This document shows positions 21,010-59,496 of a DNA stretch of 64,000 nt, piece after piece. Under the pieces are notes generated by a model. It was given only the letters and a program-made list of their open reading frames with translations, had not been told where the DNA came from and searched no databases. Position 1 is the first letter of the stretch; each line of letters opens with the position of its first letter. Both the position numbers and the translations under genes were made by a program. The DNA lies in contig CAMPDV010001255.1 in the NCBI GenBank assembly GCA_946699065.1, forward strand, positions 1-64,000, read 5' to 3'. Source of the stretch: Loxodes magnus. Taxonomy: Eukaryota > Ciliophora > Karyorelictea > Loxodida > Loxodidae.

Positions 21010-21010
21010 T

Positions 21011-33200: not shown

Positions 33201-36200
33201 AATTAAGGCTACATTGCAGTTACTACTTCAGTATTTAGATTTGACTGTTTGTATCAAGAAGGTGAAAGAAAGTATTATAGTAAAGTTACTATCAACATTC
33301 TATTACCTTTTATCATTTTAATAGCTACCTTAGTCTCTTTATCCTTCTGATCTATAGTTATGCGTAAACCTTTTAACAAATCAGTTTTTATAACTGTCCT
33401 AAGTGTTTCCTTCTTTTAAATTTATACCAGCTTAATGATTTCTATCTTTAGTACTTTCAGTTGCTACAACATTTCCAATAATATAGATGTATTAAACGCT
33501 TTTGTTGAAATAGAATGCTGGAAAGGAAGCCATTTAAACTTCGTTTTGGTTCTTGCCTCACCAGCTTTAATACTATATGGATTAATGGCTCCTTTAATAG
33601 TAACTCTCTACCTTTATAAGAATAGAAGTAAGATTTAGACTTATTAAATAAAGTCATAGTTTGGATTCCTTACAATAGGGTACAAATAGGAGTATTACTT
33701 TTGGGAATTTGTTAAGATCTACTAAAAGTTTATAATATCCTCTATCTTCATTTTTCTATAGAAGGCTTCTATCATTTTCTAGTTCTGAATTTTAATAGGA
33801 ATTTTACTAATCTTTATAGCAATCTAAGTTAGATGTTAGCCTTTTATAAAAGAAGAGCTAAATAAGCTGGAAGTTAACTATATGTACATTTCAGTTTTTA
33901 TACTTTATTTAGGCATTTACTATGAATCTGGAGAGCGTTACCTAGAGATAGACATGATTACCTTTATATCATTAGTTGCAGTAAATATCTATTTTGGTGC
34001 TATATGAAGCTAAAATTTAGTAATGGAGTTTGGTTTTTAAATATTAAGGAATTCATTAAAATGGTACTACTTTTTGGGATGCTTCAAATAAAAAATAGAC
34101 CTAGTAGAGATTTTTAATACCCTAGATAGAAATAAATAAAAAGAAAAAGCTAAAAAGAAAAAATCATAAAAAGAGAGCAAATCACTAAAAGACGAATCAG
34201 AAATATAGCAAGACTAAGATAATTAAAAAATTAACTTGCAAGACTACTAAACAAAAAGTAAAAAGCTTTATAAGCTATTTGATAAGAAAGAAGAAGTATA
34301 ATGCTTAAATTAAATTGAAACTTAACTTTTACCTGAAATCAGTTAGAGTGACCTGTATAAATTAATTTGTTGGAATAGTCACCTCTCTGTAGAGTAATAT
34401 TGAAATAATAGAGTCAAATAGTTTCTCTAAAAATATAGAGAAAAAGAACAAGAAAACTAGTAATTTAATGAGGAAAAAGGTGATTACCTGGAGAAGGAAA
34501 CTAAAGTAATGGAAGATCAGAGTATTTTCTAAAAGGATAAAGAATTCTCATTTCATTAAGATCAGGAAAAATTTTAAGGCGAAAATATATTAAATGTTGA
34601 ATCTGAATATTCAGACTCATTTACTTAGAGAAGTGATTAAGTTCTTCTAAAAGAAAAAATTTAGCTAAGAAAGTAGTTTATTAATATTAAAGGATTTCTT
34701 CCAATAATCAGCAAAAGAAGATCATAAAACTTAATGAATAAGATTGAGGGATTTAAAACAATTAATGGAGATCAAGATTTAAACTTTGAGCAATAGCAAA
34801 ATATTCTAGAGTTTACTCAGAATGAAATAGAGTTCTACAATCCAAGTGATTTTACGCAAAATTACTTATAGGAGAGCAAAGATTGAGTTGAAGTAAAAGG
34901 ATTTAACTCTATTCTTCATTGATTAATCATTCTATTTAATTACCATATAAAGAAAATTATTCTTCTATTCTTTTAATAAAGTTTAAAGTTAATCTATTAA
35001 TGCATCTAGTCTATTTCCCTTTAAATAACCTACTTTCTGAAAGATAAGCTTGTGAAAAAAACTAGCTTTTTCTAACTCTTTATTAAAGTAAAAATGAATA
35101 AAAATTGTATATAAGCTAAGCAAACTCATAGAGAAAATAGAATGATACCTTCTCTGTAATTAGAATGTTCTATGTATTGTATAATATTTAACTTATAGCT
35201 CTCTTTATAAATACTTCATTAATAGTTCCCTTTTAGTCTAATCAAGTTAACTATGAAATTATATTTAAAGCTTAATTAAAAAGTCTCTATCTATATAAAG
35301 GCTTTAAAGAGCAAATACTGAATCAAATCTGTATAATTTGTATGACTGAAGCATTCTGTTACTAGACTGTTGATACTCTTAGACTATTTTATTACTAAAT
35401 CTTAAATAAAAATCAAAAGAACAAAATTTTAAAAAATGTAACTGAAACTCTTAATAAATTTTTATAGGAACAGCAAGCATTAGAAATAGAAAAGATAAAA
35501 AAGAGAAAGTTGCTTGAAAGGAAAATTAGATATAGATTTATTATATAAAAGCTTAGAATAATTTTCTTTAGTGATAAACTAGCAAAGTAAGGAACTATAA
35601 ATCTATCCAAAGATATTTACTAAAAATGTCTTTGAAAAAGGAAATAAAAACTAATTAAAACGATTTAGTCAGACAAATAAATGCTATTTTCCTTAAACAG
35701 GTTGAAATTTTTCATTGATCAATTGTTTGAATTGCGAAATTTAAAAATAAAGAAAGAAGATTATAAAAATTATTTATCTTAATTGATTTATTTAACTAAA
35801 AACCTAAAAGTACACTTTGATTTAAATACTCATATACTAGCTTAAGATAGCTTTAAATTAGCTTTGATATAATAATCAGATATTTGGAGTAAATCATCCT
35901 TAAGTTTAGAAAAGGCTATTAAGATATAACAATATAAGGAAGCTTTCTTTATATGATTAAATTACTTTAATAAAAAAAGTATGTTAAATTAACCAAAAGC
36001 CTTAATTGAAAACTTTAAGTTTGTCTTTATAAGTACTTTTAATAAAAAATTGTTAGCTATAATTGTATTAGCTTGGTATTAATTATATTACAGAGAAATT
36101 ATTCTTCTAATGCAAGCAAATTAAATATAATGCTTTGTATAAGTAATATATTTTTATAAGGAAAAATCAAAAATTCTTTTAAATATACTTATATAATAAA

Positions 36201-37915: not shown

Positions 37916-37971
37916 GATATTAAAGAAGAATGAAATACTAAAGAAATAATATATTTAAGAATTTATAAAAA

Positions 37972-38042
37972 TGCATCAGCCGGGAATCGAACCCGGGTCA
38001 CTTCGATGGCAACGAAGTATTCTACCACTAGACCACTAATGC
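37972..38042 (-). tRNA. tRNA-Gly(GCC)
   Basis: Identical 71-nt minus-strand copy of the tRNA-Gly at 3520-3590, with full cloverleaf, anticodon GCC and a downstream T run on its own strand. It lies tail-to-tail with giant gene copy 2. The same gene-end/tRNA arrangement is preserved in decayed form at 54555-57626. Confidence 0.95.
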
Positions 38043-39739
38043 TGTTAAATAATAAATGAACTAAAGCTTAAATAATGAATTTAAAAGATAAGCTTAAAAG
38101 CTATATAAATATATCTTTAGATAAAAGTGTTATTTATCAATTTTATAAATAAGCATAAATAATGAAGTCTTAAGGTAGAAAATGGTTTCTATTTTTAAGT
38201 AATCTCTTTACTCAGTTTAATAGATTTTTTCTTTCTTGGGATTTATTAAAATATTATAAATGCTAAATTGAAGAAATATTCAGAAATAGAATAAATAGCC
38301 AAAACATAAATTGAGGAGTTAGAAGTATATACGAATTCATAATCTCTAAATCATAAGCAAAATATATCAAAAATCTTTAAAAAACAAGCTTATTAAATAA
38401 ACTATTATGAGTGATTAGGTTATAAGATAGAAATTAAAAATATAACTAAATAAATGATAACTAATTTTATCTCAATTGTGCATTTTTCTTTTTTATTCGA
38501 TCTAATAGATTATTAAGCTTCTTTTATAGTCCCTTGAAATATATTTAATCTAATTAATATTGATGCTTATTTTAATTAATGAATCCTCGAAAGGGATTTC
38601 TTTTTAAGTCTTAAGAAGTTATTTATTTAAGGGAGGGTTTATTCTAAGTGACCTATAAGCCTATTGATTTAGACTAAGTTTAAGATTTACTTCTAAAGAC
38701 TTATTTAAATGTTCTTATCACGTTTTCTTAATGAAAAAAGGAAAAATAATTTAAATGTGAAGCCTATAAAGCTATTTTAAAATTAAGAAATGAAGCAGAT
38801 ACATATAACTATAAACTCTATTTATGTTCTTTATTAAAATGAAAACGCTTCAAGTTTATGATTTAGAATTTTTAAGAATCTACTAGAATGAATCACTTTA
38901 GTTATAAAGTGTTATAAAATGCTAATATTTCAAAATAATAGGTACCTTATAACCTTCTTCAAAATTAAAAATTTTTATATTCAAATTTAATTAAATAACA
39001 CCTAAGAATTTTTATAATTAAAGTACATGCTAAAATTTATATTTAGATGGATCGAAATTAGCGTACCGCTTCTTAAATATCTTATGGTTGCATAGTTCTG
39101 AATCAAAATATACAAGAAATCTAAATGTTCTATTTGCACTTCAGATAATTATATCTTTTGATGATAATTGCTTAAATAAAAGAATTTTTTATAAAGTAAG
39201 AGTTAAATTCTAAAGAAAGTTAATGTGTTTTGATAGTGTATACTCCAAATCATAAATATCAGAAAGCCATAACTGGACATTTAAACTTGAGATGAGGCAT
39301 TCTCTATTCTTTAATAGAATTAAAAATTTTGTAGGTTAAATTAGATTTTAATCCAACAATACCATAACTAAAATCCTTCTAAATGTTTACAAACTGGAAA
39401 TGATTTAAATTTAAAACTTCAATCTAAATTTCCTTGCTTCCATTGATTCATCTTAAAAGTTCCTATTGTCTTTTAATAAGCAAATCTGATAAATCTTTGT
39501 AATTATTTTTCTTTTAGTTGAAAGAAATTTATTCATTTTATTTTTTCTCTTATATCATTTAAATTTAATTTCTTGCTGGTTCTTTATAATTTAACTGCAA
39601 TAAATTTAAGTCTATTATTTAAATTTAATCTTCAATTAGATAAAGTAAATCACTAATTTTGCTTATTTAGATTGGAACTTAATTTATTGATCCAGGCCTA
39701 TAAACTTTTAAGTTTTTATCTCTGCTTTCTTTTAAACCT
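38043..39739 (+). other. coding-like block, no family recognised
   Basis: From about 38600 to 39650 plus-strand frames give protein-like sequence (for example LWFRIFKNLLEWITLVIKCY, LKYLMVAQFWIKIYKKSKCS), but more than one frame looks plausible after 39250 and no start, stop or domain can be fixed. The first 500 bases after the tRNA look non-coding. Confidence 0.25.
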
Positions 39740-41050: not shown

Positions 41051-42020
41051 ATATATGACTATTATAGAAAAAATGGTAGAAGGGTTCAAGAAAGGCTTTT
41101 ATACCACCTCCTAAAAAGGGGAGAGAAAGTAAGAACCCTCATCTTTAACTCACACATCTTCTTCCTAGAAATAATCTTCTTCTCAAAACCTTCAAGAATA
41201 TTAGACTCAACTAGGAACTTCCAGGTCAACCTAAAAGATGGGACAAAAGCGCCAAAAGGCTACCCCGATCACACCAACTGAAGAGGAAGAATCTAGAAAG
41301 GTGCTGGAGACGCAAGAAGCAGCAGCTGTGCGAGAGTTTGCGATGCCACAGTTCCAAGAAGAACAGGCATAAATTTTAGTCGCATTCTCTAACCTGAAGG
41401 AGGAAGTAAAGAGCTATGATTAAAGAATAGAGCTCTAAAAAATCAAGTTGCTGAGCTCAAGGAATGGAAAGAAAGCTTCTGGGAAGTCTACAATCGAGAG
41501 CAAAGCACTTTCTTCAGGGAAATGGGATTGCTGCAGCAGAGAACAACTGTGCTTGAAGAGAACAGCAAGTAGCAACAGTAGTAGGAATTCAAAGTTAGGA
41601 CAATTCAAGATACAGTGGACATAGAAGGAGCTACTAATTTACCGAGGAGTCCAGACAAGAAATGAATTAAGAATAAACCAAGATGTTTTGTATGCAAACA
41701 AACTGGACATAAATATAGACAATGTTAGAAATTGAAATTAATTAAATAATAGTACAGGAATAGAAAATAATAAGAAAAATAATAGTACTAATATTAGGAT
41801 AAGATTAGACGAGAATTCTGTAACTAATTTTATCCGTCAGGAGGTCAAATCTACAAACCGAAGTGATACACAATCCAAGGCGACTGAAGAAAGAGTTCTG
41901 AAGGGAGCTGGTTCCAGCCAGGTTATCAAACTGGTCCTGTGTACACGAGGTTGAAAGTCCTCCAAGTTCACTAAACTCCAATTTAACTTTTTAATTTAGT
42001 AATATATATATGACTATTAT
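41051..42020 (+). mobile_element. gag-only retroposon A1 with 15-bp target duplication
   Basis: A 940-bp unit (41066-42005), much richer in G+C than its surroundings, is bounded by a perfect direct repeat ATATATGACTATTAT at 41051-41065 and 42006-42020. It starts with a short A-rich leader directly in front of an ATG (41073) and ends in an A/T-rich tail. There are no terminal repeats and no reverse transcriptase. Variable-length target duplications without terminal repeats are typical of target-primed retroposition, so a LINE machinery acting in trans is inferred. Confidence 0.75.
41073..42005 (+). CDS. Gag/ORF1-like protein with CCHC knuckle (A1, one frameshift)
   Basis: Starting MVEGFKKGFYTTSQKGER, the N-terminal part is rich in Ser, Gln and Glu, followed by a coiled-coil region (NLKEEVKSYDQRIE, then QVAELKEWKESFWEVY) and a basic segment. 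A canonical zinc knuckle CX2CX4HX4C (CFVCKQTGHKYRQC, about 41684-41725) is followed by a very basic Gln/Arg stretch and FYPSGGQIYKPKW, the family's C-terminal motif. TGA is Trp (KKWIK before the knuckle). One base is missing near 41432, so the first and second halves lie in different frames. Such knuckles bind nucleic acid; the product would act as an RNA-binding chaperone like Gag or LINE ORF1p. It is related to A2 at 52138. Confidence 0.65.
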
Positions 42021-42995
42021 GAATATGCCGAAATAAATCTACGAAATTATAAAATATAGAAACGATAGGACTTAATTTATAAACAGGTAATATTCTACTC
42101 TTTTAATAAATTTATAATTTAAGAAAATTAAGTCTTATTAGCTTCTATTGTAATTACTTCTATATGATTGCTTGCTAATAACTAATAAATTGAGAAATAA
42201 AAAAGTAGTGAATGATATAATTTTCAGTAAATTAAAGATTTGTTTATTATTTAGTTCCAAACTAGCAAAATTTAAAAAACTCTTTTAGCATTAAATTTTT
42301 GCACTAATTAAAACATCAATGAAAATATTAGAAGGTAGATATGTATAAAGATTAAATATTAGTGTGTAGTTAGCATCAAATAAGAAATTACTCTTTGGTA
42401 AATTTTGAAAATAACATCATTACTAAGAAGCTATGTGAATAAATCTAAAGCAAAATTTAAATTGAAATAATCTAATTCTTTTTAAACTTATTCATTTAGT
42501 AAATTAATAAAGGAAATAAATTAAAAATAAAAAGTTGAGAGAAAAGAAATCTCCTACATTTAAGAATCTAATCTGTTATAGTTTTTAGTTATTAGCTATA
42601 GTTCGAATTTAATAGCTAGGTTCTTAAAAATTTATAAATCTTTAAGAACTTAATATGGTTCTTCCTCTTGAGATATTTTAGCTAATATCTTTTAAGTTAA
42701 ACTGATAATTTTTTCTAACTTTTAAAATTATTTGATTAAGAAGTTTAAATTTTTTTTCTTTTTAATATATAATTAATGCTTTGAAGTAGAAAATCTTTAC
42801 ATTTAAACTTTTATTTTTTCTATTTATTTAAATTTTTTCAAAATAATTACTTTTAGATAAGCATTTTATCTTTTATCTTTTTTTGCTAATCTATAAAAGT
42901 TATCAAGTAGCATGATATAAAAGATTAATTTGTGAAGATTTTTATTTTTACTTTTAAATTCATTTTTTAAGCTTTAGTTCCTTTGACATTTAACG

Positions 42996-43066
42996 GCATT
43001 AGTGGTCTAGTGGTAGAATACTTCGTTGCCATCGAAGTGACCCGGGTTCGATTCCCGGCTGATGCA
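42996..43066 (+). tRNA. tRNA-Gly(GCC)
   Basis: Plus-strand copy identical to those at 3520 and 37972: 71 nt, anticodon GCC, followed at once by a TTTTTA terminator-like run. Confidence 0.95.
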
Positions 43067-43517
43067 TTTTTATAAATTATATATATCTATTAAAGATTTT
43101 TAAAATAACATCTTTCTAAAAGCTTATATAGTTTAAGGCTTTTCTTATCTTAATTAAAGCATAACTAGAGCAACATTTATAAGTAATAAATTTATACTTA
43201 CTCTTTGCTATTTTAGTTGCAAATATGATTTGAATTGCAAGAATTTTATTATTCTTTTTTGTTCTTTTTTTATATCTTAAATTTAAGATTGATTCTAAGT
43301 TCTTTTTTCATGTCCTTCATTATCTATTTGTAATGGGTCAATCTTTATTAATTTTGATAAGGATATTTGATTTTCCTTATCTTTTATGAAATCCTAGCTT
43401 ATTCTAAATAAATAATTACATTATTCAACTTAGTCAACTGCTTTGAAAGTTTAGAATAGTTAAAGAGTAATTATGCTTAAATAATTTTAAAAATTATCTT
43501 AGAAATAAATATCAAAA

Positions 43518-43589
43518 GGGCTGTTCCGGGAATTGAACCCGGGACCTCTCGCACCCTAAGCGAGAATCATACCACTAGACCAAACAACC
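43518..43589 (-). tRNA. tRNA-Pro(AGG)
   Basis: On the minus strand the cloverleaf is complete: acceptor GGTTGTT/AACAGCC, D arm TGGTCTAGTGGTAT, anticodon stem-loop CTCGCTTAGGGTGCGAG with anticodon AGG, and T arm CCCGGGTTCAATTCCCGG. A decayed copy lies at 60336-60397. Confidence 0.93.
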
Positions 43590-45163
43590 TGTTATAAGTT
43601 AATTAATTCATAGCTTAAATCTAACTCCACAATAATATAATTAGATATTAAGTTCTAATCCCTTGCTATTACTTGATTAAAGGCCTTCAGTTGCTTTCTT
43701 CTTGATATATTTAAAAAAGCTAATAACTCTTATAATTTAATCAATAAGCTACCTAAACAATTATATAACTATTTAATTAAAAGAACTAGAAATTAATTCT
43801 TAGTTGTAAGCACTTCGTTATTATTTAGCTTTAATAGCCAAGAGTATGCTAAATTATGTTGTTTACTGTTTTAATGTTTTTAGTCTTAAATGATATACTA
43901 AAGAGATCTTGCAGTTGCTTAAATGTATACAAGCAAATTAATTTCTTCTAGTCTTGGATTAACATTCTTTGAGCAACCTTAAAAGCATAAATAAAAGTAT
44001 AATCCCGAAACATCTATTCATTGAAGCTATTTACTTTATAGGTTAAACTTAAGATTCTTATTATTACGTTTTCTAAAACTTAAATTAATATTATCCAATT
44101 GCTTTTCTTAGCATCATCAATAACTCTTTTTATACCCTCTCATCTATCAAACGGAAACTAAATAATAAAATAATAAAGGAAAAATGAAAGCAGCAAATTA
44201 AACTAAGTAAGAATTGATATATCTTAGATTAAAGAAAATATAATATGATTCATATTAATAAAGATTAGCATCTTAATTGAAATTACTTAATTGAGTCTTT
44301 TATTTTAAAAAGAGTAAAATAATCATGAATTTGAATTAACACTAGCTAAGCTTATTAATTATTAATGTAAAAATTGTTATATAATCATATGTCTATCAGT
44401 AATAATATGGTCAATAATATCCTTAAAGAAAGGTTAAATTTATTATAATTATTTATTATATATTCATTTTAAATTCGTAAAGAGAGAAAGTAAGAAAAGG
44501 GCCAAATCATATTTGGTATATTAAACACTTTTCTTATAAATTGTTCTAAAGAAAAATATTTATGTTTACATAAACTCCTCAAATAAAACATTTTAGTATC
44601 ATCATCTAAAGTAAAAGAGTTAGTAGAAGGAGGCAATAACTAAGAAATTATTTAACTCATTAATAAAAAGTTAGTCTATTCATATCTTATAACTTTTATA
44701 AATTATTGGAGATTAAAATTCTAATTTAGAATTGCTTTAATAATAGACTCCTTTTTAGAAATTTTATACTAAAGGCCTAAAATTTATTTATGCCTAATTT
44801 ATTTCTTACTATTTTATCTATTTTTCACTTTAATTAAAATAACTTAACTTATATATTCAATCAGTGTTAGGTGTAGAATGAGCTTTTGCTTGCATTAATC
44901 AAGGAAAGTTTTATAAGAATCCTTATACTCAAAATGTATAATAAGATTTAAAGAATAAAATCTCATTTTAGTTACATTAATTTCTCATTTTGTGATTTTA
45001 CCATACACTATTCTCCCCTATTTTACTCTATCTCTTCATCACTTTTTAGTTAAGTTATTAAAAATAATTTTGATTAAAATTTAAGTTTAAGCATAGAGAT
45101 ATAGAATGTACTTACCTATTAAAGGAAAGCTAATACTTTTTTATTCAAAGTATTAAGATTGTT
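43590..45163. other. AT-rich spacer, no gene recognised
   Basis: Sequence between tRNA-Pro and the small ORF at 45164. I found no supported coding frame, repeat or RNA gene. Confidence 0.35.
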
Positions 45164-45403
45164 ATGGACTAAGATAAAATAGATGTAGTAATCGCAGCTA
45201 AAAATTTAATGAGTGCTTTTATTAATTTTGCTCTTAAAGCTTATATAAAAATATAAAGTAAAGATAAAAGAATCAAGGTTTTAGATAGTAATAATATAAG
45301 CTCCAATATCAAAACTTAATATACTTATGTACTGTTTTTGATAGATCTTATTTAAGATTACTTAAATTCCTAAGAGCAAAGGCATCCTAATTAAAATTAA
45401 TGA
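45164..45403 (+). CDS. small ORF, 79 aa, unknown
   Basis: ATG 45164 to TGA 45401-45403 with no internal TGA. The product starts MDQDKIDVVIAAKNLMSAFI and continues with a Lys-rich middle and a hydrophobic patch (YVLFLIDLIQDYL). Residue make-up is more protein-like than the flanks, and the combination of ATG and TGA without intervening TGA is mildly supportive. No homolog is recognised; it lies about 300 bp upstream of a tubulin relic. Confidence 0.3.
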
Positions 45404-45699
45404 TCTTCCATGAACATTTTAGTATAAAATTTATTTTTTACCTATTAACTTATTTTGTGGGATATTCAGGGAAGAATATATTTGCAACCATAAAATATTA
45501 AAAAATAATTGCATCCAGCTCCATAAAGAGGAGTATTTTTACTCTTTAATTAGACAGATAAATAAGAGAATTTGATATTTTTAACCTTTTAATTCTTGAT
45601 AGTAGCAAACTGATTCTTGGGTCTAAGAATCTATTTTTTAAAGCTTTTTTCTAGAATTATTTGCTTGGAATTATTTATATTAGTTCTATAAACTTTCTT

Positions 45700-46780
45700 A
45701 GTCAATTTCCCGGGTAATATGGAAACTAAATTGGTTGTTATCAATAACTTTTTAAGCTTTATAAGTTAATTGTTGGATAGATAATAACGTTAATAATAGA
45801 GATATAAATTTTAGTACTGAAAACAATATTTTAGTTGATTATATTTTAGATGCTGCTAGGAAAGAAACTGAATGTTGCGATGGTTTATAAGAATTTTAAA
45901 TAGTGCATTCATGTGAAAGCGAACAGGTTTGTAGATAGTAAGTCTTTTAATTTCTAAACTAAGAGAAGAAATTCCAATAAAATACAGAGAATAATTTATT
46001 TTTTCCTTTTTCTAAAGTATAAGATATAGTAGATGCTTATACTGCAATTTTAAGTGCAGCTTAATAATTTAGAATCAAGTAAAGTTAAATAACAGATAAT
46101 GAAGCTTTATTTAATATATGTTTAAAGCCTTTAAACTAATAACTCCAACATATTAAGTTTTAGTTGCTTTGAACAAAATTAATGAGCGGATTTACTAATA
46201 GTTTAAGGTTTCCTGAACTTCTAAATGTAATTTAAGAAAACTTTGCTATAACTAAGTTTCTTTTCCAAAAGTACGATTTTTACTCTTTATTTATCTCCAT
46301 TCAAAGTTAATCTAAGTTCTGCATACATAAATCAAACAGTTCCAGAGCATTTAATAAATTTTATAGGCTTTAAATTTTTTATGCATTACTATCCAAGACA
46401 GAGTTATTATTATCAGCAGCAACAACATTTTTAGAAAAAAAAGATTAAGCAAAATTTAGAAAATTGGATGTTTGGTATTTAGAGTAAAATAACTACTTAA
46501 TCTAAGAATGAATCCATAATAACTTAAAATTATCTGTTTGCAATATTCATCTTAATGAGTAAAAGCATCAGTTACTTTATTATTAAACAATACAAGCGAT
46601 TAAGAATATTTAAGCATAAAGTACTGATTTTTCAACAATATTAGTATATAGGAAAAGAATGAGTCAAACAGAATTAACAGAGAAAGAACTTAATATGAAA
46701 GATTTAATTCTAAATTTTGATAATATAAAGAAGGATCAGAAGATAGTGAAGTTAAAGAAAAGGAATGAAGATTTATTGCG
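45700..46780 (+). pseudogene. decayed beta-tubulin relic
   Basis: Remnants in order: GQYGNQIG (45710-45740), DYILDAARKETECCDGLQEF for the DVVRKEAEGCDCLQGF region (about 45840), NEALFNICL (about 46100), LRFPELLN (about 46205) and parts of the C-terminal half up to a charged tail near 46750. Several frameshifts and loss of the GGGTGSG signature make it non-functional. Confidence 0.75.
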
Positions 46781-47233
46781 AATAAAGATTAAATTAATAA
46801 AAAATAAAAAAATAAAGCAACATTAGCAAAAAAGAGCTTTGAATAACTTAAATATATCAATTTTAAAATCTTACGTTTTTAATTTTATCATTTTTGAAAT
46901 AATTTAGTAGTTTTTAATTATAGAAATTTTCTTAGATTAAATATAATAAGTTCATTTATTTTCAATTCCATATATAATTTGAGACTTTATTTATATAATA
47001 TAAATCTACTAATTAAATCCATATTTCTTTATAATTTAGAATATATTTGTTTAAAGCAAATTTAATTTTCAGCTTCTTATTATAAGTTAAAAAATTGTTT
47101 ACTAGTATAAAGTTTAATTTAGAGGTTAATAAAAATGCAAAGTTATCTGATTTCATGTGAAATACTTTTTTTTCGAATTATCGTGTTATAATAATAATAA
47201 TAGTAAACTAAAAGTAATTAAAGTTTAGCATTC

Positions 47234-47316
47234 CCTGGATTTTCAACCAGGTTTTTGCTACCATTTTTTTAGCGTGGATGGATACCACGCCATTTTTTTA
47301 TGTGGATGGAACCACA
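47234..47316 (-). repeat. three hairpins in the 3' part of B1, two in 29-nt tandem repeats
   Basis: Stems CCTGG/CCAGG (47234-47251), GCGTGG/CCACGC (47272-47290) and TGTGG/CCACA (47301-47316) follow each other. The last two belong to tandem units 29 nt apart, each beginning CCATTTTTTT. Between units the stem bases differ but remain complementary, as expected if the RNA fold matters. Confidence 0.55.
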
Positions 47317-48013
47317 GAGGATCTTCTGTCTTTTATGTGAATAGTTTTCTCTTGTAAATCCCTGTTTAGGTTATTCAGAGTCTGCTGAGTATGCTTAACG
47401 TTCTTTATTGTTCTTTTATCTAAATTTATCTTCACTAATCGCAATTTTGTAATAAGTGTCACTTTGATTTGCAATAATAGCATTGTTTGCCTTGTTTTTT
47501 CTTGAATCTCTTCAGAAATACTTTTTTTTCAAGTTAATCGATTCTTTTGATTAAATCTATATTAATCTTTTAGTCATTCTATTTTTCTTAAACGTTTGCT
47601 TATGTAGAAACATTTTCGATAATCATATTTTGTTCTTGCTTAAAATTCGATTGAGATTATTCATATAGTTACTATTCCGTGACTAGATTATTCTAAATCA
47701 ATTATCGTCTAATTATTAGTAGCTCGTTATTTTAATCTTCGATAGTATTCATTAGTTCTCTTATTTTTTCCCCTTGGTTGTAAATTGTTTCCTAATAATT
47801 TTGTATTATTGTTTTCATTTGGTCAAGCTATATTTATATTTCGGATTATTTTTATACCTTTACTGGATTCGATTCTATTGTTCCGATTATGATTTTTCCT
47901 TCAGAGGAGGAACTTGATTTATCTTCTTCTTGTTGTTGTCTCTGCATTTGTTTCGCAGCTTTCCTTTTTGCGTTCTTAATTTGGTTTTTGGAAAGGCGAA
48001 TAGATTATTCCAT
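47243..48013 (-). CDS. Gag/ORF1-like protein with CCHC knuckle (B1, intact, 256 aa)
   Basis: ATG 48013 to TGA 47243-47245 is one uninterrupted frame of 256 codons. Order: basic N-terminus (MEQSIRLSKNQIKNAKRKAA), acidic/Ser linker, a long Gln/Glu/Asn-rich coiled coil (about residues 55-145), and a zinc knuckle CX2CX4HX4C (CYYCKSKWHLLQNC, about residues 170-183). A basic C-terminus follows with RLWITQTGIYKRK, the family motif. Three in-frame TGA codons (in KSKWH, DQWRQ and RLWIT) must be Trp, so the ORF is only readable with the local code. The proposed stop lies inside the loop of a 3' hairpin. Nucleic-acid binding is expected; no enzymatic domain is present. It is the best-preserved member of the family in the window. 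Confidence 0.75.
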
Positions 48014-48036
48014 TTTTTTTTATATCGTGTTATAAT

Positions 48037-50068
48037 TGCAATCATTATCTTGTCTTATTAAGAGAAAACTAAATTTACTCATACAAATCAGGTAAATCTA
48101 TTTATTTATATGTTCAGGTTAATTTAATTACTTTATAGAGCATGCATTTATCAGTATATCCTTTCAGTTACTATATTTATTAATAATTTAAGAATAAATA
48201 TTGCTAAGTAAATTAATTTAAGTTATATAGCTTTTTAATGACTTAAATTTAGAATAAACAATCTAAATTTTTACTCTTGCAAATTAAATAAATACAATAA
48301 TAATAATTATCTCGATAAGCTAAATTAAACCACCTAATTAAGCTTATTTATTTATACTCTTTTAAGAAATATCATTTTTAAATGTAGTAACTACTAATTA
48401 TTTCTCTTTATACATAGCTTCTGCAAATTTAAATGATTGAATATTGTATATTAATCTCTCTTTTTTAAGACTATCATCATAATCAATTCTTCTATCTTAT
48501 ACTCAATTTAATTCGAAGAGTATACATTCAGATATGATATTTTTGGATTAAAGAATAGTAAATATTTATTATCTAGCATACCTTTATTTCTTAGTGTTTT
48601 TATACATTTATATTTATAGTAAAAAGCATAAAATAGCTAAAACTTCTCGTTAATTAATAAAAATTATTATTCCTTAATGCGAAAAACCTTATTTTTTACT
48701 TTTAGATACTTCTGATATGTAACAACCTTTATTATTTCATTAAACAATTTATATATAAAATACCTTAAAATAAATTTATATGCATATCATAGATAGTAAA
48801 ACAACCTTTTTCAGCTTGGTGAAACCTGACTTATCTCAATGATATATAGCTTATTTAACTAGCATTCTATTTGTATTAAACATAAATAGCTCACCATATC
48901 TCAATTATATTTAGGAATTTATTATTAATGCATTTACTAATGTACCTCCATTTATAATTAATAACCTTATATATAATAAGTTTATAGTACTTTATAGATT
49001 TTAAAATTCATAAAAATATTTATTCTGCTTTCTTAGCATGATAATCACTAAAAGCTATCAAAACTGAATCTATTAATAAATTCTGAATTAGCTTATTTAT
49101 TCTTTATAAATAGTACTCACTTTAATTAGTAAATACTAGAACTTGATACTTAAAAACGCTGCCTCCATTCTCAACTTTTTATTTTCTACTATCTAAAAAA
49201 TGTATACATAAGAAGCTTTATATCTTAAATATTCTCTTTAACGTCAATCTATGTAAACCTTTACTAAAGACTCTTTTCTCATATAACTAAATCTTTTATA
49301 TATTTTTTAAAACTATTTCTTATCTTTCATTTACAAATAAACTTAATCATAGAGTGCTTCTCTTATTTATACTTTAGACTAATTGGCTTGATTTTAAATA
49401 TTAGACATTTTATATGAAAAAACTAGTTTAAATCAGATTAAACTTAACTTTTAATATCAAAGCATTTTACTAATTTATCTTAAACATTTAAATTCTTTAC
49501 TCACTTTAAGACTTTAAATCAGTTATACCTTAACTATTAATAATCTTGATCTTTCTAGTATTTTTAAATATAACTACTTTCATACCTAAATTTATTTAAA
49601 AATGTTTATAATTGCTTTTAATTCTACCTTCTTAGTTTATTATCTTTGAAGTTGTCTAATACTAATATATCATATCTTAAATGTCTATATGTCTTATTTG
49701 TTTTTCTTTATTTAAATAAATCTAATTTACTCTTCCTGCTTACTAAACTAGTTTAATGTGACTAGTTTCTATTCATTTTAGACTATTGATGGATTCTCTG
49801 GAAATCTTATTTGATATAGAAATAAAGATAAAGCTATTAATTTCTAAAGCCTATTGAATGTAGACATTTTGGTGTTGATTCTAGTAAATTAATTATACTA
49901 AATTGTATATTTCAGTAAACTCACTTTTAACTATACCAAAATACATTAAATATATAAGAATACATTAAGAAACATTTACCTGTTTCATACATCTAGAACT
50001 TCTTTTCTTGACCAGTATTCTTTATCTCCTCTTTTAAAAGCTCAAAGGCATCTTAATTATATAATAGC
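48037..50068 (+). other. coding-like block upstream of beta-tubulin
   Basis: From about 48790 to 49900 one plus-strand frame gives protein-like sequence: SLVKPDLSQWYIAYLTSILF, FIINAFTNVPPFIINNLIYN, NQFNVTSFYSFQTIDGFSGN. It resembles the hydrophobic tails of the giant genes but no domain is recognised, and start and stop are unclear. The last 150 bases would hold the beta-tubulin promoter; TATATAATAG lies just before the ATG. Confidence 0.35.
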
Positions 50069-51406
<1,338 letters not shown>

Positions 51407-51587
51407 GTATAAAAACATTTTATTCATAAATCACTAAAAAGTTTCTCAAATATTAAAAAGTTAAAAACAATAAAATAAAGTAAAAAGAATATTATGAAAA
51501 ATAGATAGATAGAATGTTTATATTATTATTAAAATAGCTATAATTGTATATTTTTTAATAACAAAAGAAGCAAATAAAGTTTTACGA

Positions 51588-52137
51588 ATGATAACTTTTT
51601 AAGAGTTAAAAGTATTTTTAAGTAAATTTGAAAATATAGACTTAGAAGAATAAGACACTTAAGAAATTTAGATTTAAAATGGTAAAGAAATTAAACAGAT
51701 TAAGTTAGTGTATCTATGAAATTTTTTGTATAGAGAATTTTTAAATAAGGAAAGTTATTTAAAAAATTTAAAATATAAACATTTGAAAAAGAACTAAGAG
51801 TTCTACCTTTCTTAGATTTTATTTTATTAGATCTACGTTTTTATTTTTTTTGTAAAATCTTCGGCTTTCTGTACATAACATTTTTTGCCAATTATTTACT
51901 AAAGCTTCTAGTTGCTTATTACAAGTTTATTTTCTTCTATTTTTTTTCTTCTTTTTGGTGAAAAAAAGTTTCTAATTTTGATTCAGCTTTAAATGGGATA
52001 TTTATAGAAAAACGTTATTAAATTGATTTTTTTTAGATACTATGCATATTTTAGTTTTTTTAAATAGTAAGATAATAAAACAAAAGGAATTAATATTTTG
52101 AAAGCTATTTTTCTTTAAAATTCTATAATATTAAAAA
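51588..52137 (+). CDS. ORF of unknown function after beta-tubulin
   Basis: ATG 51588 opens a frame beginning MITFQELKVFLSKFENIDLE, acidic and then Lys-rich, with one in-frame TGA (as Trp) near 51717. It loses protein-like character after about 51850, where T-rich sequence follows, and no stop can be chosen. It may be a short gene or a truncated one cut by the element at 52138. No homolog is recognised. Confidence 0.25.
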
Positions 52138-53050
52138 ATAAAGTAAAAGGACTGCTTCAAGAAGAGTTCTTTTATCGCCTTTCAAAACAAGAGAGAAGAC
52201 CTGGAACTTCTCATATTAAGTCATATTCTAGCTAACCTTCTTAGTAATAATAAATATAATAACTAATAAAGTCAGGGAAATTACAAAAGTAGACTCCATA
52301 ATCTCCAACTACGGCTGAAAAGCCAATTAAATATTATGAAATTTCCATACATCAGACATTCCATAAATTCGACATTGGAAAAGAGAAGATAGTCATTACT
52401 CAACATGCTCTAATGATTGCTAACCTTCGGTAAGAGGTTTTAAAACCGAAAGTATTGAGCGAAAAATTTCTAAAATAATTGGAGCAAAAGAAGATCAAAA
52501 TGAATCAAGAATGACGAATTAAGAAAAAGATTCAAGTGTACTTAAACTTATAAAATTATTAAGCATAATAGACTGCAGAGTTACAATAAAACCTCCAAGA
52601 AAAGAAAAGGAAAATAAGAAGTATTTTAAAATAGACCAAATTAATGAAAGAAAATTCCTTAGATAGAATGGAGATTGAAAGGATCCACTAGAAGGAAAAA
52701 AATGAGGAAAAAATAGCCAAAGTTAAAAAAAATATGCTACTATTGTAATAGCAAATGGCATCTATGGTGAAAATGTTCTGCTTTAAGATTCAAGGAATAA
52801 TCATGAAAAAACAAGGTAAAAAGAAAAATAAAAAATACATAAAACTATATATGATGCAGGAAGAACGGAGAGGTATACAGGTTGAAAGTAAATTTGCATA
52901 CAATGGAGCTGGAAATTATAGTGAAAATAGATCAAGATGAGCTGAAAAGAATATAAGGAGAAATAAAATTTTAGAGTTCCAGAGCTCGATAAAAACTGGA
53001 TATTTTAAACTTGAAAAATTCATTTAAGCGGTGACCTGCAATGGCATTCA
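52138..53050 (+). mobile_element. gag-only retroposon A2 (decayed)
   Basis: Collinear with A1. FFYRLSKQERRPGTSHIKSY matches the FYTTSQKGER start of A1, then TPQSPTTAEKP and HALMIANLRQEV follow. A basic coiled region (about 52490-52720) and a canonical knuckle CX2CX4HX4C (CYYCNSKWHLWWKC, 52734-52775) come next, and then NGEVYRLKVNLH as C-terminal motif. The start codon is lost (AAA where A1 has ATG) and an extra A in the A8 run just before the knuckle shifts the frame. No target duplication could be found, so this is probably an older insertion. The end coordinate is approximate. Confidence 0.65.
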
Positions 53051-53249
53051 AAAATTTTGATTAATAATAACAATTTTATATCCTTTAAATATTTTAAATA
53101 TTTTATATATTTATTTAAAAAATTAGAACCAAAGAAATTAAAAATAATATATCTAAATTTTATAGCCAAAATCTATTTTATTTTTCATTCATTTTTTATT
53201 CTTAGTCAAAACTAAATAAAAATAGATGATGATTGTTTTATTTTAAATT

Positions 53250-54550
53250 ATAATGGTATAAAATAAAAAAGTTTAATTTAATTTAATAAATGAAAAACTT
53301 AAGTTACTTAGCCTTAAAAACCATATAAGCATATGTTGTTTATTTGAGGCTTAGTATATATCAGTATGTTAAATTTAATAATAATGTAAAATACTTTTTA
53401 GTTTAAGTTAAAAATTAAGTAAAATGCAAATAATAACAATACATATATAGAAAGTAAACATAAATAGAACGAAATAGTTTACTTTTATAAAACTTTGGAA
53501 TATTTAAAGAAAATTAAATTATTTTATTAGAAATATCTTTATAAGTTTAATCAAACTATGCTTAAGTTTTGGGAACATAAAATGAATGTATTAAACTTTA
53601 TTTTTAGTTTTGACTGATTTAAAGATTTATTTACTTAATAAAAATTAAGCTAGATATTTAAAAACATGAGTTGCTCAATTGATCCCATAATTTCACCTTT
53701 TACAGTTTAATAAAAGTCTATCATGGTTAGAGAGAAATTAAACAATAATTTGAAAAAAATAATAAAGTTGAACTTAAAATTGATTCTAACTGTATTTATC
53801 AGAAGATTGCTATTTATAAATTCAAAGACAAAAGTTTAATTTAGTGAAAATAAAGAATGAAGATATTCCTTATAGTTTTACATTAATAACTATATTAATT
53901 ATTAAATTAGAACTCTTCCCTCTAAGTAAAATCTAAAACCTGATAACTTTAATTTTTATGCTTAAGTTCTGGTAAAAATCAAGATAGGAAATATATATGA
54001 AGATTCTGAACTAATAGGCTAGTTTTAAATGTTGTAAGATAATAAATTGAAAGATGGGATAATAAAGAGTCTTAAATATCCCATTCTTTGTAGATAGAAC
54101 AAATTTCATAATGGTAACTATTATAATTTCTTAAATAAGAGAAATAATTCCAGATAAAGCAATTTAAATATTTTTAGCTTTTACTCAAAAAGCATGGGAT
54201 ACTGTAGTAAAACCTTACAATGTAACTTTGAGGGCAGATAAAATAATAGAGAACTAATAAAATTTATGGCTTCTAATAATGAAGCTTTTCATGATATAAT
54301 TTTTAGAGTTTAAACTGAAAAATCAGACATACGGAAGTAAAAGTCAGGTAGTACTATAATTAACGAATGTGATAAGTTTTATTCTTTACCTACTCTTAGA
54401 AATGTAAACCGCAAATTTCCAATCCGCAAAATTGAATAATTAAGTAATTAAATACTTGATGGACTCGTTTGATCTTAAAATGAACAATATTTAGTAGTAG
54501 CAAGATTCAAAGGAAAAATGAAAGATTAAGAATTAATTGAACAACAAAAA
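53250..54550 (+). repeat. second copy of the 21011-23000 duplication
   Basis: Begins with a remnant of the giant-gene 5' flank (TATAAAATAAAAAAGTTT at 53257), then repeats the 440-bp spacer and the tubulin relic of the first copy, lacking about 500 bp between 53710 and 53725. It ends abruptly at about 54550, where sequence matching the tail of giant gene copy 2 begins. Confidence 0.85.
53720..54550 (+). pseudogene. truncated beta-tubulin relic
   Basis: Closely similar to the relic at 21985-23340: IDSNCIYQ near 53790, IISQIREIIPDK near 54125, AWDTVVKPYN near 54200, NNEAFHDI near 54280 and VARFKGKMKDQELIE near 54500. It shares that relic's frameshifts, so it was already dead when duplicated, and it is cut off before the C-terminal third. 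Confidence 0.8.
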
Positions 54551-54554
54551 AAAT

Positions 54555-56590
54555 GTTAGAGTTTACTTAGAACGAAATAGAGTCCTAACATCCAAGTAAT
54601 TTGACTCAAAATTACTTATAGAAGAACAAAAATTGAGTTAAAGTAAAAGAATTTAAACATTATTCGAAGAAGATTTTACTTCTATTCTTTTTATAAATTT
54701 TATCTTTTTTTTTATAATTAATTCTTCATTTCTAGTCTCTTTTTCTTATTTATACTTATTTTCTGAAAGATAAGCTTGCAAAGAAAACTGTTATATTTTC
54801 ACTCTGAGTTAAAGTAATAAAAAGAAAGCAAAAGGAATTATTAGCTAAGCAAACTTATAATAAGCTTTAATAATTGAATAGAATAGCTCTTACTCTGTTT
54901 ATTAGGATTAATAATATTTAGCTTATAGAGTTCTATTTTTAAACCATAGGAGTTTCCATTTAGTCTATTTAAGCAAGGCTGAACTATGTAAAATTTAAGA
55001 AAGCTATCTATTTAAAAAGTATTGATTTATATAAAATTTTTAAAGTGCAATCACTTTAAGTAGACCTCTATATTTATAAGATAAAGAAGCGTTACATCAC
55101 TAGAATATTTATTTTCTTAATCTATCATTACTAAACCTTAAAAATTCACTAGAACTAACTTAAAGCAAATGTAACTATAATAGATAATAAGCATTTAATT
55201 AGTTAGCAAGTATAATAGAAAAGCCAAGAGAAGAAGGCTACTTGAAAGAAAAATAAGATATTTAATATTTGAATAAAGTTTAGAAAATCTCTCTCCTAGT
55301 AATAAATCACAAAGTAAAGAATTATAAATCTATCCTAATATACTTTATTCAGAAAGTTTTGGAAAAGGAAATTAATATCATATAAATCAAGCCAATTTAT
55401 TCTTTTTCTTGCTTATTTTCAAAACAACTAACTAATAAAGCTTACTTTAATTATTTAGATTTTGAATCTCTTCTGGCAAATTAGTTTAATGCCAGACTTT
55501 GAGATTATACTGATATCTAGCCAAAAGGTTTAAATCACTTAAATTTTATTATATTAGATAAGATTAATGGCTAGACAGACCTTATTGATAAATATTTATT
55601 TCTATTTATTAGTTAAGCATAAATGATTAACTGTGCTAAATTGACTAAGTTAATTATAAGTCTATTGGAACAACTTCTCTAAGTTTATAAATGAAAATAG
55701 TTAAAAAATTAACTTCTTCTTTATTTTTCTCTACTATAATAGAGGCATTTTGAAGTTTAAGATCTTCATTATTGAAAGATTAAATAAATAGCTTATGATT
55801 ACTTAATAACTAAATACTTGTTGATATGAAATAATCTAAGCTTTGAATATTCCTTTTTTAATAAATTTGATTAAATAATAATCTTGATTATAGCTTCCTT
55901 TTATTTAATAGGATTTAATCTAACTAAATGAAAGCAAAATCAATAAACTTATCTAAATGCAAGAGTTTTTAGTTTGAGAGATTTAATGTAGCATTCTAAT
56001 TAAAGTATGGTTTTGCTAATTTTAAATAAAGATTAAGAATTAAATGCAAGAAGCAAGATAAATATAATAGATATTTCTATAAGGATTAAATAGACTCTCT
56101 TAGATATCTTAAAATGCCCTACAACCTAACTTTGCAAACTTCAATAATTAGATCTAATTAAGTAAGTCTCTTAGGTAAATAACTACTTTTAATTAAGTTG
56201 TAAACATTAGTACCTGTACAATAATTATTTTAATGGTAAAATAATTAATAAGAAATTATTATAGTGTATGCTTATAAGCATGCCAAATCTTATTTAATCT
56301 AGCTATATTCCTTTAAGTTTACCATTTATTATTAAGAAACTGCAAGATAAGTTTAATGCTTAATCGCTTACAGCTTCTTACTTAAATTCATAATGCTTAT
56401 TGTATCATTACCTAGTAATACTTTTTATTAATAGATCCATAAATCTTTGCAAAAATTGTCTTAATGCATTGGGATAAATAAAAAGAGAGTTTATAAAAAT
56501 AAATTAGATGTTTAAAGAGCTTTAATTAGAGAATCTAATACCTTTTCTATTTTATCCAATTATTTAAACTTAAAATTCTAATAAAAAGTC
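54555..56590 (+). pseudogene. relic of giant-gene C-terminal tail (copy 2 type)
   Basis: From 54555 the sequence matches copy 2 from about 34813 onward (shared FTQNEIEF..PS.FTQNYLQ region), then follows its tail to near 37870 with many deletions and frameshifts. Blocks corresponding to LERKIRY (about 55240), the hydrophobic repeats (about 55450-56000) and KHAKS (about 56278) are recognisable. It has no N-terminal half. The matching tRNA-Gly relic lies at 57556, separated by inserted element B2. Confidence 0.8.
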
Positions 56591-56594
56591 AAAG

Positions 56595-57452
56595 TTAAAA
56601 AAGTTAAAAACCTTTGTTAAAGCCTTAGTAGTCAGCCATCTGACCTATTCTATCAGCTTGTCTCTATTTGTTTGTCTTGAATTCCTACTAGGCTTAGTTA
56701 GGCGGTGTAGCACTTCATTAGTACACCATCCTTTAATATTCGGAATAGTTTTGGTCTTGCACTTAGCGTTCCTAATTATTTATCCAAGGATTAAGATTTT
56801 AATTAAAGAATTTTTTCTATAAATGTTTCCGCTTTATGTTGGATATATCCTAAATAGTTTTCTAAAAATATCTTATTTATTCTTTCTTTAAATTTCGCTT
56901 AGTTAGTAGCAGTATTTTCATTGGTGTTATTTATTGCACACGTAGCATTTTATTTTTCTTTTAAACTATTATTCCTGTAACACTTATTTAATTTAAATTT
57001 ACTACTTATTTTAAATAAACGTTTACTGTTTATTTTAATTTGAGGCTTCATTTTCTATTTCCATAGGATCTGATTAATTCTGTTAAAACGAAAATGGCGT
57101 TACCTGAATTTATTATTAAATTTAAAGAATTCTTTGTTCCAGTTTGCTTTCTATTTCTTATGATTATTAATATTTTTTCTCAAGTAAAGACGTTATTAGT
57201 TTTTCTAATTTTTCTACTTTATCAGTGAGGTATCTATTTTTAAGCATAAACTCTTTTAATGACTTAGATAATATTTCTGTTTGAGTTTGTGTTGGAAGTT
57301 TTTTTAATTCTGTATTTCCAAGTGGTTAATGTTCGTCATATCAATCATATTTCTCACTTTCACTCATTGTAATTATTTCGCTTTTTTATTTTTTAGAGAA
57401 TTTTCCTGTTTAAATGTTTTGTTCAAAGTTCTGTTATTTCTTAGAAGCCATT
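56595..57452 (-). mobile_element. gag-only retroposon B2 inside the giant-gene relic
   Basis: A minus-strand unit inserted between the end of the tail relic and its tRNA-Gly. Copy 2 (37870-37972) represents the empty site: sequence left of 56590 and right of 57455 both align to about 37870-37890. The target duplication is eroded (AATTCTAATAAAAAG on the left, TATATAAATAAAG on the right). As in B1 and B3 the ATG sits at the very 5' edge (57451). Hairpins GTCAG/CTGAC (56631-56644) and GGTGTA/TACACC (about 56703-56726) lie in its 3' part. Confidence 0.7.
56633..57451 (-). CDS. Gag/ORF1-like protein with variant knuckle (B2)
   Basis: Reads in one frame from MASKKQQNFEQNIQTGKF through an acidic patch, a coiled coil (YLTDKVEKLEKLITSLLEKK) and a Gln-rich linker. 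A knuckle of unusual spacing, CX2CX3HX4C (CYVCNKQHQWKYC, about 57265-57305 on the plus coordinates reversed), is followed by LFRIYPTQSGNIYRKN and a basic end containing GWCTNEVLHRL. No frameshift is needed. The missing residue between the second Cys and His is shared with B3, so it is a subfamily trait rather than damage. A stop is not obvious, so the 3' end is approximate. Confidence 0.6.
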
Positions 57453-57555
57453 TTATATATATATAAATAAAGCATTAAGAGATAAGTAAGCTAATAATAC
57501 GTATATTAAAAAAGATGCATACTAAAGGGATTATTTATTTAAGAATTTATAGAAA

Positions 57556-57626
57556 TGCATCAGCCAGGAATCGAACCCGGGTCACTTCGATGGCAACGAA
57601 GTATTCTACCACTAGACCATAATCTC
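57556..57626 (-). pseudogene. tRNA-Gly(GCC) with damaged acceptor stem
   Basis: Anticodon arm and T arm match the intact copies (one C-to-T change in the T stem), but the 5' acceptor strand GCATTAG is replaced by a sequence that does not pair with CTGATGC. It is the duplicate partner of the tRNA at 37972, carried along with the giant-gene tail relic. Confidence 0.8.
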
Positions 57627-58614
57627 CTAGAGAACTAAATCTTAAATAAAGAATGAAATATAAAGCATAAAGTAATAAAATAATATCTCTTAAATAAAGA
57701 TGTAACAAATAAATCTTATAAATTAGCCTTAATAGAATAACTTGAATCTAGAAATTTATTATCTAATTATTAAGTTTTATCTTACTAAGTGTTATATGAA
57801 ATTACTATCACTTTAATACAATTATAGTAGCAAATCGCTATGAAATAGACAAGTTAAAATTTTAAAGGATAATTAAATAAAAAATAAATAAAGAATTATA
57901 TAATTATATAGTGATAAACTTATTATATATCAAACTTATTTATTCTTTTTTCTAGGATTTATATTAAGAATCAAATTATTAATTTTATTAAACAACTATA
58001 AATAAAATTAAAGATAAAAATAAATAGTCATAAATAATATCATTCCATATTTACCAAATTATAAAAGCAACCTTTCCAAAAACTTTTTTAAGAAATAAAA
58101 TGTTTGCTTAAATTAACTATAACGTATGGTAAGGCTCTAAGATAGAAATTAAATAAATGTAACATAATGGAAGATAATTAAATTTATCTAAATTGTATAT
58201 TTATTGTCTTTTTATTTTTATCTAATAATTCAGATTATTGCATTCAGCTACTTTCTTTATTTATTATTTATAAAGTTAATCTCCTATAAATCAAATAATT
58301 TAAATTTAATCTATTTAAGTATATTTCTTTATTTTATGTCTAATAAAAGCTTAGAAGCACTTTCTCTTTAATTCTTAAGATGCTATTTTATTTAAGTTAA
58401 GTTAAAAGTGCTCTTTAAAACTACAACCTTAGTAAACTAAATGAGATTAATTAAAAATATTTGAATCCTCTAAGAATCTTATATTTCTCAAAAGTATTAA
58501 GCAAATAGCAATATCTTCCTTTTATAGTTATCTAATTTAGTTAACTAGCCTACTTAAACTTATTACACTTTAGGCTAGTTTATCTAATAAGCAATTAGTT
58601 CTATTTATTAATCT
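57627..58614. other. AT-rich spacer, no gene recognised
   Basis: No supported gene. Some plus-strand frames near 58300-58600 are mildly protein-like, but nothing can be assigned. Confidence 0.3.
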
Positions 58615-59496
58615 TTATTAATTAGAAAATAAAATGGCACCTAAGAAATAATAGACCTCTATTAACGAATACTTGAAAAATAAGAATAGCCTAATTTAAT
58701 TGAAGAATAGCCTTAATAAGATAAAGATTAATAATCTAAGGAATCCTTTGCATAATCAGTTCAGCAAAGGATATCAAATATCCAATATGACTTGAAAAAG
58801 CAAAGATAAAAAATAGAAAATTTAGAAAAATTACTAGAAAAATTAATGGAATAATTAAACCTATAATTCCCATCCATAGATGAATCATTAAATAAAATCT
58901 AATCGTAAATAGTAATTAAATTGGAATAAATTGATAAATAATTTAACGAAGTCCCTCAAATGTTCCAATTTCATTTTTCTTAAATTGAATATCAAATAAA
59001 GCAACTTTAAGAAAAACAAGAATAATAGCAAGTAATAATTTAAAAATTATAAGATTAATAAGATTAATAATCAAATATCCCAATGGAAATCGAATCGGAA
59101 TTCTAATAATAAGAAATAAATAAGATCAATTATTATCGCAAATAGATTCGGTGCTATTTATGCTAGAAAAATCATTGTTGGAAAAAATGCTGGAAGAAAC
59201 AAGAAATTGAAAAAATTAACAAGTAATAAATATTAGACTAACTTTTCAGAATATGACCAACAAGAACAGGATAAATATACAGAAAAAAATTCAACAACTC
59301 AAGAAACAACGAGTTTTATAAAAATGGAAGAAGAAACTATAACGATAATTAGTGGATGAGGGAGAGACAAGGATGGCGGACTAATGTAGTCCTACGCAGT
59401 CCTTTAGTTCAGGAAAGAGCAGGAACAAAAACAAGTGAACCCTGGAGCTCTTTTCTAAAACTATAAACTTAATTTTATCCTTATTAATTAGAAAAT
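58615..59496 (+). mobile_element. gag-only retroposon B3 with 16-bp target duplication
   Basis: An 850-bp unit (58631-59480) lies between perfect direct repeats TTATTAATTAGAAAAT at 58615-58630 and 59481-59496. The ATG (58634) is only 3 nt inside the 5' edge. The 3' end has a hairpin (GACTA/TAGTC, about 59377-59390) and a tail with TAAACTTAATTTT, like the CTAAACT tails of A1 and B1. No terminal repeats and no reverse transcriptase. Confidence 0.8.
58634..59470 (+). CDS. Gag/ORF1-like protein with variant knuckle (B3, one frameshift)
   Basis: Starts MAPKKQQTSINEYLK; a base is missing near 58676 and the remainder reads in one shifted frame. It continues with an acidic/Gln-rich N-terminal part, a coiled coil (DLKKQRQKIENLEKLLEKL), a Gln-rich linker, and a knuckle CX2CX3HX4C (CYLCQKNHCWKKC, about 59150-59190). 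LFRIWPTRTGQIYRKKF and a basic tail with GWRTNVVLRSPL end the protein. It is closest to B2 in start, knuckle spacing and C-terminal motif. The early frameshift would silence it unless it is a sequencing error. Confidence 0.6.

Follow-up and report, generated by a model that had tools for sequence, protein, structure and literature searches.

Families of Gag-encoding retroposons without a reverse transcriptase in the genome of Loxodes magnus

A 64,000-nucleotide stretch of the karyorelictean ciliate Loxodes magnus (contig C1255, positions 1 to 64,000; GenBank CAMPDV010001255.1; here called the window) holds several units of 0.8 to 0.95 kb that encode one Gag-like protein and nothing else. We read them as members of related non-long terminal repeat (non-LTR) retroposon families that are copied with machinery borrowed from long interspersed nuclear elements (LINEs), a reading to which we assign a probability of roughly 0.8. 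The units occur in many copies with fixed ends and carry neither a reverse transcriptase (RT) nor terminal repeats; their protein is under frame-specific constraint, and copies of two families, A1 and B1, are flanked by target duplications, with one B1 site also found empty. Tail repeats and this empty site point to copying through RNA, and we infer that a LINE does the copying in trans. The existence of such RT-less, Gag-encoding families, put forward in an original prediction from the window sequence alone, is confirmed, and the observation is larger than first noted.

The searched assembly comprised 705,730,643 bp in 7843 contigs. The published account of the L. magnus macronuclear assembly gives 706 Mbp, genetic code table 27, and about 2,700 RVT_1 domains, and describes a somatic genome full of retrotransposons in which 757,000 interspersed repeat copies are unclassified (PMC11441545). 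The main text of that account contains no use of "gag," "zinc," "nonautonomous," or "SINE" (short interspersed nuclear element), and the repeats may be catalogued there unnamed. Our genome-wide copy searches covered A1, B1, and B3; only the best candidates were scored, so the sample is biased toward young, intact copies. Each copy count includes the window copy, and the candidate totals below are a first look and need not all be full copies.

Copies, ends, and insertion sites

The further copies anticipated by the original prediction were found in large numbers for all three searched families. The 40 best A1 copies among 1099 candidates were full length or nearly so, with 95 to 100% identity to the window unit (940 bp; positions 41066 to 42005, plus strand), as were the 40 best B3 copies among 2172 candidates (98 to 100% identity; window unit of 850 bp at 58631 to 59480, plus strand). 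For B1 (830 bp; 47193 to 48022, minus strand), 40 of the 41 best matches among 3131 candidates were full length or nearly so and printed as 100% identical, the 41st being a partial match at 71%, and identity in 20 measured loci was 99.88 to 100%. B1, at least, is a very young and largely unchanged family. The best 40 copies of each family have ends that coincide with those of the unit itself, and neither pol nor an RT occurs in the scored copies or in the window units of A1, B1, and B3. Terminal repeats are likewise absent: when the start of a unit is compared with its end, direct matches do not exceed 7, 10, and 7 bp in A1, B1, and B3, respectively, and inverted matches do not exceed 7, 6, and 6 bp.

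Target duplications were read from the flanks of the copies. Some loci represent the same site on duplicate contigs, such that 20 A1 loci correspond to 11 sites and 20 B1 loci to 17. Sixteen of the 17 distinct B1 sites have duplications of 11 to 19 bp; the exception, in L045, has none and directly precedes the 5′ end of a LINE of the type found at L011 (described below). Among the A1 sites, 7 of 11 have duplications of 13 to 16 bp and the remaining four have 7 to 9 bp, although an intact sister copy at one of these four has a perfect 18-bp duplication, bringing the count to 8 of 11. In a mismatched-flank control, none of 110 A1 pairs reached 11 bp. The perfect duplications originally described in the window were remeasured at the same lengths: 15 bp at A1 (ATATATGACTATTAT; 41051 to 41065 and 42006 to 42020), 14 bp at B1 (48023 to 48036 and 47179 to 47192), and 16 bp at B3 (TTATTAATTAGAAAAT; 58615 to 58630 and 59481 to 59496). 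The B3 duplication recurs on contig C2046, which represents one and the same site. A solo 830-bp unit, S20 (in locus L020), has its own 14-bp duplication.

The window B1 insertion has an empty counterpart. Locus L061, on contig C1392, holds one copy of the 14-bp target and no insert, with flanks 98.6% and 98.9% identical to those in the window. C1392 also holds copies of A1 and B3, at 99% identity and in unchanged order, and we therefore regard it as either a second allele or a duplicate of recent origin; in either case, the B1 insertion was precise and recent.

These ends and sites bear on whether the units could instead descend from an LTR retrotransposon or a virus-like element of which only Gag is left. 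A coiled coil followed by a CCHC knuckle is a layout that occurs in LTR Gag too. However, direct matches of only 7 to 10 bp between the ends of A1, B1, and B3, together with target duplications that vary from 11 to 19 bp, as opposed to the short, fixed length typical of LTR elements, make such an origin extremely improbable.

The tails of A1 and B1 copies consist of (AT)n or (ATT)n and not of poly(A), and the features seen at unit 3′ ends are a predicted hairpin, a GCTAAACT-type stretch, and (ATT)n. In B1, predicted hairpins followed by (ATT)n occupy 47193 to 47338 (minus strand), an arrangement common to units S17 and S20. These tails speak against an interpretation of the units as processed retrocopies of a host zinc-knuckle gene family, as does the likeness of the 3′ end in three B-type units. 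LINE machinery is able to copy host mRNAs, and a unit that begins at its ATG and is as long as a short-untranslated-region (UTR) ciliate mRNA would suit that origin; nevertheless, diverged families have each expanded (no search for a host source gene was made), and we consider host retrocopies unlikely.

The window holds further gag-only units. One-to-one blastp comparisons gave E values of 7e-76 for B1 and S20, 3.7e-17 for A2 and B3, and 5e-6 for A1 and S12; B1 and S20 match A2 and B3 at 2e-4 to 1e-6 through the knuckle and the region of the C-terminal IYK motif, and B1 matches A1 weakly (0.002). On these links the units fall into three or more groups: one around B1, one around B3, to which A2 belongs in spite of its label, and one of A type. 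A2 (56581 to 57471, minus strand; Gag frame 57451 to 56702) has a relative in L009 that is 96.3% identical over 892 columns, and a target duplication of at least 11 bp was sought at both and not found. B2 (approximately 52150 to 53020, plus strand) had been counted as a clear unit; it is of B type, with a knuckle at 52735 to 52776, but it is decayed, its limits are approximate, and the sole exact repeat of at least 11 bp in its surroundings is an A/T 14-mer, 1342 bp apart. The relic proposed near 1905 is real: a unit with a decayed knuckle lies at approximately 1862 to 2470 (minus strand) and is 71% identical to a unit in L049 over 287 columns. Decayed copies such as these two exist beside the young ones. 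Beyond A1 and B1 copies, Gag-like matches were found at L002/L010, L009, L012, L017, L019, L020, L026, L034, L046, L049, and L059/L060; such matches are thus common, yet the loci were not sampled at random and do not yield a genome total.

The Gag-like protein

In L. magnus, UGA is described as the sole stop codon, able also to mean Trp (PMC11441545), and the window was translated with TAA and TAG as Gln and TGA as Trp. In-frame TGA, TAG, and TAA all occur within the scored RT matches of the assembly-wide search. Because almost all frames are open under such a code, an open frame by itself is no proof of a protein.

The CX2CX4HX4C knuckle occurs three times in the six window frames, once each in A1 (CFVCKQTGHKYRQC; 41684 to 41725, plus strand), B1, and B2, compared with a mean of 0.025 and a maximum of 1 in simulated windows (n = 40; order-2 Markov). 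B3 has a variant, CX2CX3HX4C, and A2 has CYVCNKQHQWKYC. The C-terminal GxIYRK-like motif noticed earlier was recovered as LWITQTGIYKRK in B1, LWITPTGIYKQK in S20, RIWPTRTGQIYRKK in B3, and RIYPTQSGNIYRK in A2. An ad hoc heptad score of our own design, applied to six Gag proteins with 200 shuffles each, was reached by no shuffle for the A1-family protein or B3, by 7 of 200 for A2, 15 for S12, 20 for B1, and 21 for S20; the predicted coiled coil is therefore supported in some Gags and suggestive in others. Taken together, the protein has a basic or Gln-rich head, a helical middle, one CCHC knuckle, and an IYK-type tail, and presumably binds RNA.

The Gag-like protein is under frame-specific constraint. 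B1 and S20 are 53% identical in protein, and the ratio of nonsynonymous to synonymous differences (pN/pS) between them is 0.42 in the Gag frame versus 0.80 and 0.87 in the others; the corresponding dN/dS of 0.12 is rough because dS is saturated. Across 20 A1 copies, pN/pS is 0.56 in the Gag frame versus 0.73 and 0.82, a weaker result since the copies are related and the sites few. The window A1 copy is frameshifted, unlike the 19 other aligned copies, and in the window B3 copy, the one B3 copy examined in this respect, the ATG and the knuckle lie in different frames.

The B1 protein has 256 residues (47246 to 48013, minus strand) and is followed by a presumed TGA stop (47243 to 47245), 50 bp before the unit end. 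The 29 codons preceding this stop include neither TAA nor TGA and only one TAG. L. magnus genes are reported to show such depletion over about 20 codons before the stop and to have a mean 3′ UTR of 53 bp (PMC11441545), and both the B1 stop context and its 50-bp remainder agree with this pattern. The A1-family TGA leaves approximately 118 bp, which is above that mean.

Relation to LINEs and the question of a donor

Potential RT donors are present in the genome, as judged from profile matches: the 150 best of 3403 candidates for PF00078 were scored and all lay above the cutoff, and the 150 best of 2075 candidates were scored for PF14529. The L011-type LINE is approximately 5.5 kb long, has an upstream knuckle and an RT with YADD, and begins with an A run and ATGG. 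About 61 bp of its 5′ end are common to A1 (41068 to 41128, plus strand; 79% identity, including TTTTATACCACCTCCT), and the first ~20 residues are alike. The remainder of its ORF1 (first open reading frame) is different, with weak, subthreshold matches to DUF4283 and zf-CCHC_2. When Gag proteins were compared with the readable parts of the L011 and L015 ORF1 regions, only the ~20 N-terminal A1 residues matched L011; the comparison covered these two regions and not the ORF1 of the clade found at L017. No match of B1 to the LINE 5′ end was seen by eye. The original half-LINE reading, in which the units are ORF1-only LINE derivatives, is thus partly supported for the A type, through the ~61 bp and ~20 residues, and not supported for the B type.

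The shared 5′ stretch and residues of A1 would favor a reading of the units as truncated copies of ordinary, RT-bearing LINEs. LINE truncation leaves 3′ ends, however, whereas the units keep a complete start and 3′ ends of their own, their scored copies stop at the unit ends with no RT attached, and past the first ~20 residues the protein is unlike the sampled LINE ORF1. We therefore regard truncation as very unlikely. As separate observations on these LINEs, 5′-truncated L011-type copies in L010, L012, L013, and L020 follow TTATTA or TATTATA and lack a clear target duplication, which may reflect a preferred insertion site, and RT matches in C5131 and C20 recur regularly at approximately 2.5 kb, as if part of a LINE were arrayed in tandem.

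As a donor for B1 and A1, the L011-type LINE fits poorly. Unlike the units, it ends in a GC-rich inverted repeat and (ATTT)n, and a junction duplication of at least 11 bp was found in none of nine L011/L014-type copies (longest, 10 bp; the limits of the L013 and L014 copies are uncertain). A wider search at L009 gave 12- and 14-bp matches, which lie off the 5′ junction in tail-like sequence. The second LINE group, the L017 clade, includes a copy in L028 with a hairpin and (ATT)n at its 3′ end, as in B1, S12, and S20. Ends of the L028 type are abundant: a search gave 1280 candidates, and all but one of the 41 scored matches reach the end of the query tail, at 90 to 100%. Its tail type makes the L017 clade the best donor candidate. 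A covariance model built from the B1, S20, and S17 3′ ends and run on 45 of 62 sources matched three further B-type ends not used in building it (E = 5e-14 to 3e-10).

A chimera in L013 (1985 to 2430, minus strand) joins an L011-type ORF2, complete to its end, through ~9 shared bases to a unit 3′ part that carries IYKRK and (ATT)n. It could be explained by a template switch from the RNA of a unit to that of a LINE, which would mean that the two had met in a single reaction. This LINE was considered as a partner family with a unit-like 3′ end and rejected: of 40 scored matches, one extends across the junction and 39 are confined to the unit part, and the arrangement is accordingly taken as a single chimera.

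Under the reading of Gag-encoding retroposons dependent on a LINE, a unit would be transcribed, with the A run before the ATG possibly marking the transcript 5′ end, and Gag would prefer its own RNA. The resulting particle would be copied by target-primed reverse transcription, with RT and endonuclease supplied in trans by a LINE that would recognize the unit by its 3′ hairpin and tail repeat. In the A type, an internal, transcribed promoter may lie in the ~60 bp common to unit and LINE. More tentatively, and at somewhat less than even odds, the units might be a self-standing class of Gag-encoding retroposons, with several families sharing a knuckle and an IYK-type tail, not derived from LINE ORF1, in which Gag gives each family a preference for its own RNA while a single LINE clade provides the RT for which all compete. 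If so, selection on Gag would act on a parasite of a parasite.

Several results weigh against the dependence on a LINE or against parts of the evidence for it. In the mismatched-flank control, 38 of 272 B1 pairs reached at least 11 bp (maximum, 15 bp), which we attribute to ATT-rich tails and targets; the same richness could have lengthened some of the B1 duplications. The flanks, which bore out duplications for the A1 and B1 families, did not do so for B3 beyond its window site: all five further sites lacked one, with matches of only 5 to 9 bp in the ~45 bp read on each side, where 5 to 8 bp is expected by chance. No domain match in Pfam or PDB was significant, and the Pfam knuckle matches were subthreshold (zf-CCHC at E = 0.067 in the A1 copy of L027). 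Seven of the 19 other A1 copies have Gag-frame indels of their own, leaving 12 of 20 free of frame breaks, and in S20 the IYK motif is not followed by an in-frame TGA. As to the donor, the missing junction duplications of the L011/L014-type LINE count here as well; the full-length LINE sharing a unit's 3′ end that the original prediction proposed to look for was not found among the LINE ends read, and the copy in L017 has (TTAA)n at its end instead of (ATT)n. The B-type 3′ end model matched A1, S12, and L019 ends only at E = 0.07 to 0.9 (A1 family and S12, 0.26 to 0.9), and since the A1 copies are not independent, the A1 and S12 matches together count as a single weak indication that the 3′ structure is shared. 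Two-sided changes occur in 7 of 27 consensus pairs across the three sequences, with a slightly unfavorable covariation term (+0.67), so that the 3′ fold is not proven. Finally, deletion or recombination could also explain the L013 chimera.

Neighboring features and known systems

Apart from the units, the window holds a nearly complete gene at 50057 to 51420 (plus strand), which we take to encode a beta-tubulin-like protein, and four diverged, mostly partial copies of it (5148 to 6452, 22404 to 22827, 45844 to 46611, and 54021 to 54335). A 7.1-kb direct duplication (10339 to 17418 and 27081 to 34155) is 86% identical and contains repeat-rich open frames, and about 0.6 kb of it recurs inverted at 20554 to 21170. 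Longer repeated segments harbor three tRNA-Gly(GCC) genes and, near 57544 to 57623, a further stretch 96% like one of them; these segments lie at 3492 to 3671, 37944 to 38159, 42880 to 43092, and 57457 to 57796.

To our knowledge, dependent retroposons are mostly gene-free, and Gag-only elements such as HeT-A of Drosophila and HAL1 (half-LINE-1) of mammals are rare exceptions. SINEs resemble the units in being dependent and short, with a tail-repeat 3′ end and target duplications, but they are noncoding, whereas the units carry a constrained protein. A scan of A1, B1, and B3 for RNA polymerase III boxes, using loose patterns of our own, found two box-B-like words in A1 and one in B1 and no box-A-like word. 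Trypanosomatid elements that share Pr77 are described as a LINE and its dependents with a common 77-nucleotide, transcription-activating 5′ end; the A1 and LINE 5′ ends are 79% alike, and their promoter role is putative.

In the way they work, HeT-A and HAL1 come nearest to the units. HeT-A is several kilobases long and telomere-specific, whereas the units are shorter than 1 kb and dispersed, with target duplications in A1 and B1; 40 fetched A1 and B1 copies were embedded in flanking sequence on both sides, with no attachment to a chromosome end among them. HeT-A is described as nonautonomous, with a constrained gag and no pol, as in the units, and is proposed to use TART Pol (PMC4467039). HAL1 insertions are reported to contain LINE-1 ORF1 sequence only (PMC4859970, citing Bao and Jurka 2010); HAL1 derives from LINE-1, whereas the protein described here is not the ORF1 of the sampled LINEs and a short common 5′ end is confined to the A type. 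The units could give a name to part of the unclassified interspersed repeats of the L. magnus macronuclear assembly, and the numerous Gag-only families found here make the contribution of Gag to an element without a polymerase directly testable.

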